Positions 2,749 through 5,210 of a DNA stretch of 5,226 bases are shown piece after piece. The notes beneath the pieces were generated by a model, which ran no database searches, was not told where the DNA came from, and saw only the letters and a program-made list of their open reading frames with translations. The DNA lies in NCBI GenBank assembly GCA_025782575.1, contig JALGYY010000027.1:1-5226 (forward strand). Direction: 5' to 3'. Source of the DNA: a bacterium. Lineage in GTDB: Bacteria; Orphanbacterota; Orphanbacteria; Orphanbacterales; Orphanbacteraceae. Numbering within the stretch: position 1 is the stretch's first letter; every line of letters begins with the position of its first letter. A program made the translations under genes and the position numbers.

Positions 2749-3330
2749 ATGAGGAAATCACTCTTCGCTCTGCTCGCACTGACCCTGATGGTCGCTTGCA
2801 GCACGACTGCTGAAAAACAACAAGTCGGCAACAATGCCGACGTCACCACCGCTCGGCAAAACAAGACCCTTGCTGACCTGGCCATTGGTGGGGTCACCTG
2901 ACCAATATGAGCAGGAGCCCTGAAACGAGGGCTAGAACGCCAGGCTGGCGTTCAAGAATTTGCCTTTGACCTCAATACGGGCATCGCCCAGGTCGCGTTC
3001 CAGGAGGATCGACGAATCGATCTGCAGAACCTGGAAGAAGTCGTCAAATCCACGGGTTTCGAGCTCTTGTGGACGGACCTTTCGACCACTGGAGTGCTCA
3101 TCCGCGCGCCAGGCCCCGATAACCAGGAAGCGCTCGCCGTTCAGTTGCAAGGCAAAGAGCAGCTCCTCTTCCTCGGGCCCGGAGATTCCGAGGGCACCAG
3201 GACAAACTACGTGAAACTCCAGCGTTGGGAGGCGGATGGGAACACCGCCGTCCGCATCAAGGGGCGATTACACGCACACACCGACACAACCCTTGGTATG
3301 TCGGAGTTTGAGATCGTCAGGAGCAACTAA
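2749..3330 (+). CDS. Lipid-anchored HMA-domain selenoprotein with UXXU metal-binding motif (two in-frame UGA)
   Basis: Reading UGA 2899-2901 and 2908-2910 as selenocysteine gives 193 residues ending at TAA 3328-3330. Residues 1-17 are a lipoprotein signal (MRKSLFALLALTLMVAC); Cys17, encoded TGC, would be lipidated, and Ser at +2 predicts the outer membrane. Residues 18-38 are a polar linker. Residues 39-108 are a heavy-metal-associated ferredoxin-like fold: strand TLADLAIGG, motif V-T-U51-P-I-U54, helix AGALKRGLERQAG, strand VQEFAFDL, strand AQVAFQ, helix IDLQNLEEVVKSTG, strand FELLW. HMA proteins (MerP, CopZ, Atx1) bind soft metals with a CXXC at exactly this place. Both Cys codons are TGA here, and no other stop interrupts the frame. 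Residues 109-193 form an extra, probably beta-rich domain that I do not recognise. The gene sits 18 nt after the barrel gene in the MerR operon, which suggests mercury or soft-metal binding at the envelope. The alternative is a pseudogene with two nonsense changes, but hitting both and only the metal ligands by chance is unlikely. It requires selA, selB, selC and selD elsewhere in the genome. Confidence 0.87.
2916..2933 (+). promoter_or_regulatory. Candidate bacterial SECIS hairpin 1
   Basis: AGCCCT (2916-2921) and AGGGCT (2928-2933) form a perfect 6-bp stem closing the loop GAAACG. The loop starts with G2922, and bacterial SECIS elements need a G in the first two loop positions. Twenty nucleotides separate the first UGA from this G, close to the spacing in E. 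coli fdhF (19 by my count). It is only 11 nt from the second UGA, probably too near for that one. The element lies inside the coding sequence, as bacterial SECIS elements do. No bulged U like that of fdhF is evident. Confidence 0.55.
2935..2953 (+). promoter_or_regulatory. Candidate bacterial SECIS hairpin 2
   Basis: GAACGCCA (2935-2942) pairs perfectly with TGGCGTTC (2946-2953) around the loop GGC. If the inner A-T pair is open, the loop is AGGCT, which resembles the AGGUCU loop of fdhF. The loop G2943 lies 32 nt after the second UGA, within the 16-37 nt range commonly used for bacterial SECIS searches. A single base (A2934) separates it from hairpin 1, so the two could stack. There is no T-run after it, so it is not a terminator. 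Confidence 0.5.
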
Positions 3331-3480: not shown

Positions 3481-3530
3481 AATGTTACAGTATCAATAGT
3501 ATGAATGCATATAGTTGACATTGTAACATT
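3481..3530. repeat. 50-bp near-perfect palindrome in the transposase leader
   Basis: AATGTTACA (3481-3489) pairs with TGTAACATT (3522-3530), and pairing continues inwards to G3503-C3508 with only two mismatches and three G-T wobbles, leaving a 4-nt loop. The first possible start codon of the transposase frame (ATG 3505-3507) lies in that loop, and a good Shine-Dalgarno sequence AGGAG (3531-3535) follows the stem directly. In RNA this could hide or expose the translation start, which would protect against transcripts entering from outside. It could also be a transposase or repressor binding site. It is probably specific to the element. Confidence 0.65.
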
Positions 3531-4287
3531 AGGAGCGACATGGCCACCAGACCAACGAAAACGAATCGCGACGATGGAAGAATTGGGAGCTGCTCTCGGG
3601 ATCGATGTCCGCATGACCATCTATCGGCTACTCAAGGATCTTGGCTATCGAACGAGCTACTCCCACGGTGGCCGGTACTATGCCTTGAAGAGGACCGTCA
3701 ACTTCGACGAACGGGGACTGTGGTCAGCCCGATCGGTCTGGTTTTCGCAACACGGTACGTTGATGGCGACCTTGGAGAGATTTGTCTCTGACTCTCAACG
3801 TGGTTACTTTGCGACGGAGTTGGAACCATTGCTCCACGTTGGTGTCAAAGAATCCCTACTACGCCTGATCCAAAAGGGGCGTATCTCCCGAGAGCGGGTA
3901 TCACACTCGTATCTGTATTGTTCGCAGATCGATGCGATTCGCAAGTGTCAGCTTGCCGCTCGTGGTGCTGAACTGGGAGTCTCCCTCGATTCGCTGATCA
4001 CTCCGGACGAGGTCTCAAACGAGATCAAAGCCGCCATCGTGCTATTCGCGGCCTTGCTCGATGAACGGCAGTGTCGCCTATTCGCCGGCGTGGAAGCGCT
4101 TCAGTTTGGGAAGGGAACAGAAAGTTGGATCGCCGATTTGCTCGGCATCCATCGCCAAACCGTCGCCAAAGGCCGTCGTGAGTTGTTGGTCGGCGAAGTT
4201 GACTTCGAGCACGTCCGTAAGAAAGGAGCTGGGCGACCCCGGGTGGAAAAAAAACGCCCGAAGTCGTCGAAAAGATCAAAGAGCTGA
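3505..4287 (+). CDS. Transposase N-terminal frame (OrfA) of the ISAzo13-type element
   Basis: This frame gives 260 residues if read alone. Residues 24-140 form an additional winged-helix-like region (MEELGAALGIDVRMTIYRLL, SYSHGGRYYALKR, FDERGLWS) not needed for catalysis, possibly for DNA end recognition. Residues 180-250 match the ISAzo13 N-terminal region: LLDERQCRLFAGVEALQFG, then a helix-turn-helix (ESWIADLLGIHRQTVAKGRREL) and the basic GAGRPRVEKK. The last ten residues (RPKSSKRSKS) are out of family register, because the family sequence continues in the -1 frame after Lys250. The likely main product is therefore a 568-residue fusion made by shifting at 4248-4254. The start is uncertain: ATG 3505 lies in a hairpin loop without a ribosome binding site, ATG 3574 has no clear one either, and the ATG with a good site (3540) is in another frame. 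Confidence 0.8.
   Translation: MHIVDIVTLGATWPPDQRKRIATMEELGAALGIDVRMTIYRLLKDLGYRTSYSHGGRYYALKRTVNFDERGLWSARSVWFSQHGTLMATLERFVSDSQRGYFATELEPLLHVGVKESLLRLIQKGRISRERVSHSYLYCSQIDAIRKCQLAARGAELGVSLDSLITPDEVSNEIKAAIVLFAALLDERQCRLFAGVEALQFGKGTESWIADLLGIHRQTVAKGRRELLVGEVDFEHVRKKGAGRPRVEKKRPKSSKRSKS
4248..4254 (+). other. Predicted -1 frameshift site (A_AAA_AAA) joining the two transposase frames
   Basis: Eight A residues span 4247-4254. In the OrfA frame the heptamer is set as A AAA AAA, ideal for a -1 slip of two lysine tRNAs. A slip here produces VEKK-TPEVVEKIKELMKL, which keeps the family's usual run into the GDP motif. An SD-like AAAGGAG (4222-4228) lies 19 nt upstream and could stimulate the shift. 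Slippage by RNA polymerase on the A8 run is an alternative mechanism. Confidence 0.72.
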
Positions 4288-5210
4288 TGAAGTTGAAAAC
4301 GGCTGGTGATCCGATCACCGGACTGAAGTGGACACGAAAGACCACAACAAAGATCGCCGATGCACTGCACAAACACGGGATTCGCGTGGGACGAAGCACC
4401 GTCAGCAGACTCCTCAAGCAGATGGGTTTTAGACTCCGAGTCAATCACAAGAAACGTTCCACTGCCTCGCCCAAGAATCGCGACCGGCAATTCCGGCTGA
4501 TCCGTAGACGCCGCAACGCTTTTGCGCGTAGCGGCGATCCAATTGTCAGCATCGACTGCAAGAAGAAGGAAAAGGTTGGCAACTTCAAGAATGCAGGAGT
4601 AGCCTGGAAGGAGACAGCTACTGAGACGCTGGCCAACGATTTTCGTTCCGATGCGGATGGTATCGCCGTTCCTTACGGCCTGTACGATCCCGAAGCGAAT
4701 CGTGGACTGGTCGTCATTGGAACCTGCCGAGAGACGCCCGCTTTTGTCGTGGATTGCGTTCTGAGCTGGTGGCAAACAGAAGGACGCAAACGCTACCCAG
4801 AGAGTCGACGGCTCCTCATCCTTGCTGATGGTGGCGGCGGCAATCGCTCGACCTGTCACGTCTGGCGTGCGCAGCTCCAGAAAGAGCTGTGCGACAGGTA
4901 CGGTCTCACCATCACCGTCTGCCACTATCCCCCGGGTGCTTCAAAATGGAACCCTGTCGAACATTCCCTGTTCAGCCGCATCAGCGCCAACTGGCAGGGG
5001 GAACCCTTGGAGAGCTACGAGAAAACTCTCAAGTTCATTCGCACGACCAAAACGGAGTCCGGCCTGAAGGTCCGCGCCGTGCTAAATACCCGCGACTATC
5101 CCAAGGGCGTTAGAATTCCGGCCGAGGAGCTGCAAACGCTCTCGATCCGAAAACACCGAATCCTTCCCAAGTGGAACTACACGATCACGCCACGCTCGAT
5201 GTCGAATTAA
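4287..5210 (+). CDS. Transposase catalytic frame (OrfB) of the ISAzo13-type element, DDE enzyme
   Basis: This frame gives 307 residues from its own ATG, which overlaps the OrfA stop (TGATGA). The frame is open back to 4221, and the family sequence begins at 4254, so it is probably expressed mainly as an OrfA-OrfB fusion. It has a second helix-turn-helix (about 17-50: KTTTKIADALHKHGIRVGRS) and then the DDE catalytic core typical of ISAzo13. Asp90 is in VSIDCKKKEKVGNFKNAG, Asp181 in LLILADGGGGN, and Glu225 in CHYPPGASKWNPVEHSLF. The family end WNYTITP is also present. The enzyme cuts and joins the element's ends during transposition. All three acidic residues are in place and there are no internal stops, so it looks functional. 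There is no convincing ribosome binding site before ATG 4287. The TAA stop lies inside the right inverted repeat. Confidence 0.9.
   Translation: MKLKTAGDPITGLKWTRKTTTKIADALHKHGIRVGRSTVSRLLKQMGFRLRVNHKKRSTASPKNRDRQFRLIRRRRNAFARSGDPIVSIDCKKKEKVGNFKNAGVAWKETATETLANDFRSDADGIAVPYGLYDPEANRGLVVIGTCRETPAFVVDCVLSWWQTEGRKRYPESRRLLILADGGGGNRSTCHVWRAQLQKELCDRYGLTITVCHYPPGASKWNPVEHSLFSRISANWQGEPLESYEKTLKFIRTTKTESGLKVRAVLNTRDYPKGVRIPAEELQTLSIRKHRILPKWNYTITPRSMSN

Follow-up and report, generated by a model that had tools for sequence, protein, structure and literature searches.

A UxxU HMA gene with two in-frame TGA codons and a candidate SECIS hairpin for each, in a probable mercury-type operon

Introduction

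Selenoproteins with an HMA domain in which both metal-binding cysteines are replaced by selenocysteine (UxxU) are already known as a kind (NF041115; PMC13188914). The NCBIfam family NF041115, UxxU metal-binding (seleno)protein, is entered in PMC13188914 under the name 'metal-binding protein (putative mercuric reductase)', with the motif UxxU. A selenoprotein MerP is listed for an ocean survey (PMC2398784).

Here we analyze a 5,226-nt stretch of bacterial DNA (the window), in which the gene at positions 2749-3330 appears, from comparison with its relatives, to decode two nearby stop codons as selenocysteine and to yield an exported two-selenium protein. The protein scored 28.4 bits against NF041115 (cut-off 95) and 22.1 bits against the MerP model TIGR02052 (cut-off 92.55), and so falls below the threshold of either family.

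Results

Gene architecture

A preliminary description, made from the DNA sequence alone, had read positions 2749-3330 (+ strand) as one gene with a UXXU motif in a single HMA domain, and our analysis confirmed this layout. Fifty codons run from the ATG at 2749, which is preceded by an AAGGAG ribosome-binding site, to a TGA at 2899-2901 (+; UGA1, predicted Sec51). Pro-Ile and a second TGA at 2908-2910 (+; UGA2, predicted Sec54) follow, and the frame is then open until TAA 3328-3330, for a total of 193 residues. The two TGAs, codons 51 and 54, are positioned exactly as the CxxC of HMA domains, and homologues align the first and second Cys of CxxC with UGA1 and UGA2, respectively. Pfam HMA (PF00403) matched residues 44-105 of the read-through protein (2.5e-8; 34.6 bits, gathering cut-off 24.8). 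This match spans both TGAs, so that the two halves represent one domain.

The predicted product consists of a lipoprotein-type signal with C17 (judged by eye), the HMA domain with U51-P-I-U54 and a C-terminal beta-rich domain. In the AlphaFold2 model, which has the same HMA plus beta-rich layout, block means of pLDDT are 80-93 over nearly all of the chain from residue 40, with the last few residues weak. The HMA part matches solved HMA domains, including CopZ and MerP (1osd: Z 6.8, rmsd 2.3, 72 residues). For the C-terminal domain, Pfam gave no convincing match and the fold-search matches were taken up by HMA domains; an OB-like fold is no more than hinted at by the b-b-b-a-b-b arrangement of the model.

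TGA also ends four other genes of the window (at 1149, 1633, 2730 and 4287), as had been noted earlier. TGA is therefore not generally reassigned, and we rejected host-wide reassignment as an explanation. Since annotation usually splits genes of this kind into two broken ORFs, the family probably has more members than have been counted.

Host genome and selenocysteine machinery

The host genome (4.88 Mb in 49 contigs, 95% complete) includes the window as its contig 49, and the host phylum is represented by seven genomes only among those searched. The assignment of this 5.2-kb contig to the 49-contig assembly rests on binning, and its GC content (56.3%, compared with 57-58% for four other stretches of the host genome) is not at odds with it. 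As expected of a genome with bacterial selenoproteins, the host has selA (524.6 bits), a full-length selB (378.6 bits) and tRNA-Sec (72.7 bits), each above its curated cut-off. The preliminary description had proposed a search of the source genome for sel genes, among them selA, selB and selC (tRNA-Sec), with a lack of sel genes counting against a selenoprotein; these three are present.

Relatives in other lineages and a Cys paralogue in the host

A two-sequence profile run across 386 genomes returned matches whose open frames are similar in length and contain two TGAs. The read-through motifs were UPTU (G079), UPVU (G349, Nitrospinae bacterium AH_259_B05_G02_I21, and G368, Candidatus Tectomicrobia KatS3mg131), CVFU (G104 and G370) and UPFC (G156), plus many CPFC. 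A scan of named genomes identified the Methylomirabilota genome FeB_30 with UPIU, a motif identical to that of the window. Relatives with both TGAs are found in Nitrospinae, Tectomicrobia and Methylomirabilota, and the others are UxxC, CxxU or CxxC. Including the window, the family contains five UxxU, one UxxC and two CxxU genes in addition to CxxC forms, and the in-frame UGAs align with Cys or UGA in the homologues. Homologues with Cys or TGA at both positions, which the preliminary description had asked for, do exist and are not uniformly TGC, as would be the case if the window gene were a lone degraded allele.

Other searches were less productive. In the host's own family, class and phylum (seven genomes), the host alone matched. 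Single-protein scans of genome contigs and viral contigs gave no matches, and plasmid tblastn gave weak matches to mer genes only (merA where annotated).

The host genome itself has a Cys version of the gene. Its contig 18 (L002) has an HMA gene with CPFC at the matching place and 28% protein identity to the window gene, and the beta-barrel gene that comes after it shares 34% identity (E 1e-36) with the one in the window. The two pairs share the same two-gene organization, which indicates that the HMA-barrel module exists as Sec and Cys versions. The contig 18 HMA gene differs from that of the window by Cys at both places, by the absence of the hairpins described below, and by the lack of a lipobox that could be seen by eye. 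The relatives with both TGAs from several lineages, together with this Cys paralogue, exclude chance or a lone damaged allele.

Selection was estimated for G079 and G349, two Nitrospinae-type genes. After UGA2, dN/dS was 0.19 (0.06 in the HMA part), versus 1.9 and 1.1 in the two shifted frames. The sequence downstream of the TGAs is under purifying selection in the read-through frame.

In a tree of the family, one branch parts all CxxC forms from all Sec forms (81/85 support); inner support is weak, and the window protein is divergent, on a very long branch. This topology suggests an old Sec subfamily and speaks against the repeated Sec/Cys switching that we had expected.

Two hairpins downstream of the motif

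A SECIS hairpin had been invoked in the preliminary description and not located. SECIS-type hairpins do follow the motif. The window RNA 3' of the motif contains two adjacent hairpins (z-score -4 versus shuffles). Hairpin A (AGCCCU-GAAACG-AGGGCU, 2916-2933, +) has its loop 20 nt after UGA1 and hairpin B (GAACGCC-AGGCU-GGCGUUC, 2935-2953, +) has its loop 31 nt after UGA2; we propose them as SECIS for UGA1 and UGA2, respectively. Rfam had no match in the window, and the hairpins were therefore judged by the published bSECIS limits (16-37 nt downstream, loop of 3-9 nt with G in the first two positions, stem of at least 4 pairs, -7.5 kcal/mol or lower; PMC13188914). Both hairpins pass these limits, each for its own UGA, and fail the distance limit for the other one (usual range 16-37 nt): the spacing is 11-12 nt between UGA2 and A, and about 40 nt between UGA1 and B.

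The presence of the hairpins in the family follows the positions of the TGA codons. Both were found in all five UxxU genes and also in a sixth related gene with UGGU (G196, adjoining a CPFC gene). The UxxC gene (G156) has hairpin A only. The CxxU genes (G104 and G370) have a strong B, and a weak hairpin (-3.6 kcal/mol) at the place of A. None of nine CxxC genes has a hairpin stronger than -2.1 kcal/mol at the place of A, and one has a hairpin B (-6.1 kcal/mol).

Synonymous recoding gave p values of 0.008-0.095 for hairpin A (genes in which the motif begins with Sec) and of 0.0005-0.39 for hairpin B (genes in which it ends with Sec), the latter including G079, G349 and G368, in which B is no stronger than recoding often yields (p 0.17-0.39). 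In stem B, the four innermost pairs are kept in 8/8 aligned genes, with two-sided changes at two outer pairs. In stem A, three pairs have changed on both sides, and the window's hairpin A is shifted by one base relative to the others. Hairpin A of the Tectomicrobia gene (G368) and of the Methylomirabilota gene has no G in the first two loop positions. The hairpin comparisons involve few, partly related sequences and are supportive, not conclusive.

On this comparative evidence, each of the two UGAs appears to have its own hairpin directing read-through. With the UGAs just 9 nt apart, a single hairpin might serve both, the other being an incidental product of the coding sequence, and B indeed overlaps a stretch of codons for RLEGV, which most relatives conserve, though the window does not. 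We consider this unlikely, because neither hairpin is at the usual distance from the other's UGA, because the UxxC gene retains A only and the CxxU genes a strong B only, and because two separate qualifying hairpins arose in just 0.06% of 20,000 synonymous recodings of the window. The literature that we searched, a part of the whole, did not describe paired bSECIS for UxxU genes. The natural set of UxxU, UxxC, CxxU and CxxC genes in one family is a ready-made test of SECIS assignment to closely spaced UGAs.

Gene context

A MerR-type promoter at 1174-1205 (+; TTGACC, a 20-nt spacer with a CCGTAC..GTAC dyad, TAGACT) is followed by merR, the barrel gene and, in third place, the HMA gene. Promoters regulated by MerR proteins typically have a long spacer. 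The MerR-family regulator (1226-1633, +) scored 140.1 bits against TIGR02051 (mercury MerR), the best of all families and below the cut-off of 150.85. Its nearest solved relatives are 4ua1 ('Regulatory protein'), which we take to be B. megaterium MerR, and 5crl (mercuric resistance operon regulatory protein). C80, C115 and C124 of the regulator align with the cysteines of both structures with matching spacing, and occupy the three Hg(II)-binding places.

The second gene encodes a predicted outer-membrane beta-barrel partner of 365 aa (1633-2730, +), the counterpart of the barrel beside the Cys paralogue. Relatives of the window barrel match Pfam PF13557 (Phenol_MetA_deg), from which its own family was taken; the barrel model itself is poor (pLDDT 42.5). 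A barrel homologue adjoins the HMA gene in most of the relatives' loci.

Positions 1-1149, upstream of the mercury-type promoter, encode the C-terminal part of a TonB-dependent receptor (heme/copper-receptor-like), with the N-terminal part off the contig. Positions 3505-5210 carry an ISAzo13-family transposase in two frames. Its first ORF stops at TGA 4285-4287, its second is in the -1 frame and open from 4221, and an eight-A run at 4247-4254 could be a programmed frameshift site.

Metal specificity

Mercury-type genes are found beside several relatives: the G349 cluster (Nitrospinae) has MerT plus another UxxU protein, which is of MerP type; the G104 cluster has a MerT-like gene and the first part of a MerA-like reductase; and the G196 cluster has MerT. 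Together with the Hg-type cysteines of the regulator, these neighbours make mercury the likeliest metal, as judged from gene context, in line with the earlier suggestion of Hg(II) as a plausible ligand. A diselenol metal site is chemically plausible.

Another soft metal is possible because the regulator falls just below the mercury-equivalog cut-off. The selenoprotein might then be a chaperone for Cu(I), Cd(II) or Ag(I), or one linked to arsenic, under a CueR/CadR-like regulator: copper is the commonest HMA cargo, CopZ-type models score near MerP-type ones, and metal-efflux ATPases and ArsP-type permeases occur in related loci. Such a specificity is improbable in our view, since the regulator scores higher with the MerR than with the CueR model (118.5 bits) and retains all three Hg(II) cysteines with matching spacing, and since the relatives adjoin MerT, MerP and MerA-like genes.

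Other HMA genes in the related loci

The loci surveyed contain further genes of interest. In G349, a gene for a MerP-type UGAU protein (L054:7738-8034) directly follows the MerT gene and scores 89.1 bits against NF041115 (cut-off 95), so that this cluster encodes two UxxU proteins. In G196, the UGGU gene (L061, minus strand, 7235 up past 7684) is a second HMA gene that adjoins the barrel and the CPFC HMA gene, which places Sec and Cys HMA versions together. G104 (L056:3896-4300 extended upstream, minus strand) and G370 (L057:9033-9437, likewise) encode a protein with two HMA domains, of which the first carries CEKU; its gene clusters with MerT- and MerA-like genes. Genes that by eye resemble NHL-repeat lipoproteins (L061:4777-5724; L014:6464-7378 and 9381-10373) adjoin Cys HMA-barrel pairs in two genomes. 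A region of Planctomycetota HKST-UBA84 (L076, ending at 5510) has two HMA-like domains with U-GVS-U and U-GVT-U, that is, four in-frame TGAs. The TGAs of each pair are separated by three residues, not two, and a strong hairpin lies about 24 nt after the first UGA of each pair.

Discussion

The reading of the gene as a UXXU selenoprotein, originally proposed from the DNA letters, is supported by the sel genes of the host, the relatives with TGA at both positions and the SECIS-type hairpins. Conserved TGAs, selection on the read-through frame, Sec machinery, TGA-tracking hairpins and a conserved HMA-barrel pairing are in hand. In our estimate, the best overall explanation, with a probability of roughly 0.7, is a mercury-induced operon for a two-selenocysteine periplasmic HMA lipoprotein, with one hairpin per UGA and Hg(II) held between selenolates.

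In this mechanism, Hg(II) or an organomercurial would bind the MerR-type regulator, and the long-spacer promoter would open, so that merR is transcribed together with the genes for the outer-membrane barrel and the HMA protein. On the HMA mRNA, ribosomes would decode both UGAs as selenocysteine, with SelB/Sec-tRNA probably brought to UGA1 by hairpin A and to UGA2 by hairpin B, as the comparison of family members indicates. The product would be exported and, as a lipoprotein, anchored at the periplasmic side of a membrane. Its UPIU loop would bind a single soft metal ion, most likely Hg(II), between the two selenolates, and the protein may work with the adjoining barrel, so that mercury is either kept in the periplasm or passed to or from the barrel.

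Most bacterial UxxC and UxxU selenoproteins are thought to be redox proteins (PMC9312934, PMC2398784), and thioredoxin-like genes occur in the relatives' clusters. The U-U pair could then be a diselenide/diselenol redox centre that reduces a periplasmic substrate instead of a metal holder, yet the fold is HMA and not thioredoxin, and the genes are located in metal-resistance clusters, which makes this role highly improbable. The window gene lies on a single short contig of a draft assembly, but the possibility that it is a CxxC gene which acquired two stops by accident, as a pseudogene or through misassembly, can be dismissed for practical purposes, in view of the same two TGAs in several distant lineages, the purifying selection past them, the hairpins and the Sec machinery.

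If mercury binding by a two-selenocysteine loop is correct, the affinity between mercury and selenium, usually told as a story of toxicity, would here be put to deliberate use to hold mercury. Few known selenoproteins have a metal site with two selenols, as distinct from selenium in a redox role. Looking beyond the window, we see somewhat better than even odds that the family constitutes a widespread, undescribed subfamily of barrel-paired, exported Hg-binding proteins with a two-selenium site and one SECIS for each of two UGAs 9 nt apart, the hairpin being weakened or lost when its own UGA is replaced by a Cys codon.

Comparison with known systems

NF041115 shares with the window protein the HMA domain and the replacement of both metal-binding Cys by Sec. 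It is a 74-position model of the HMA domain alone, whereas the window protein also has a lipoprotein-type signal and a C-terminal domain and is paired with a barrel. MerP (TIGR02052) and the selenoprotein MerP of the ocean survey resemble the window protein as exported HMA proteins of mercury clusters with a CxxC/UxxU metal loop. Unlike MerP, the window protein has an extra C-terminal domain, and its gene is without an adjoining MerT gene in the window. NF045683 (MerT/CopZ fusion-like heavy metal transport selenoprotein) also has a selenium-bearing HMA domain in heavy-metal transport, but it is a membrane fusion protein, against which the window protein scores 24.3 versus 375. Compared with these systems and with the literature that we searched, what appears new is an exported protein that has a C-terminal domain, is partnered by a barrel, occurs in several phyla and has two hairpins matched to two UGAs.
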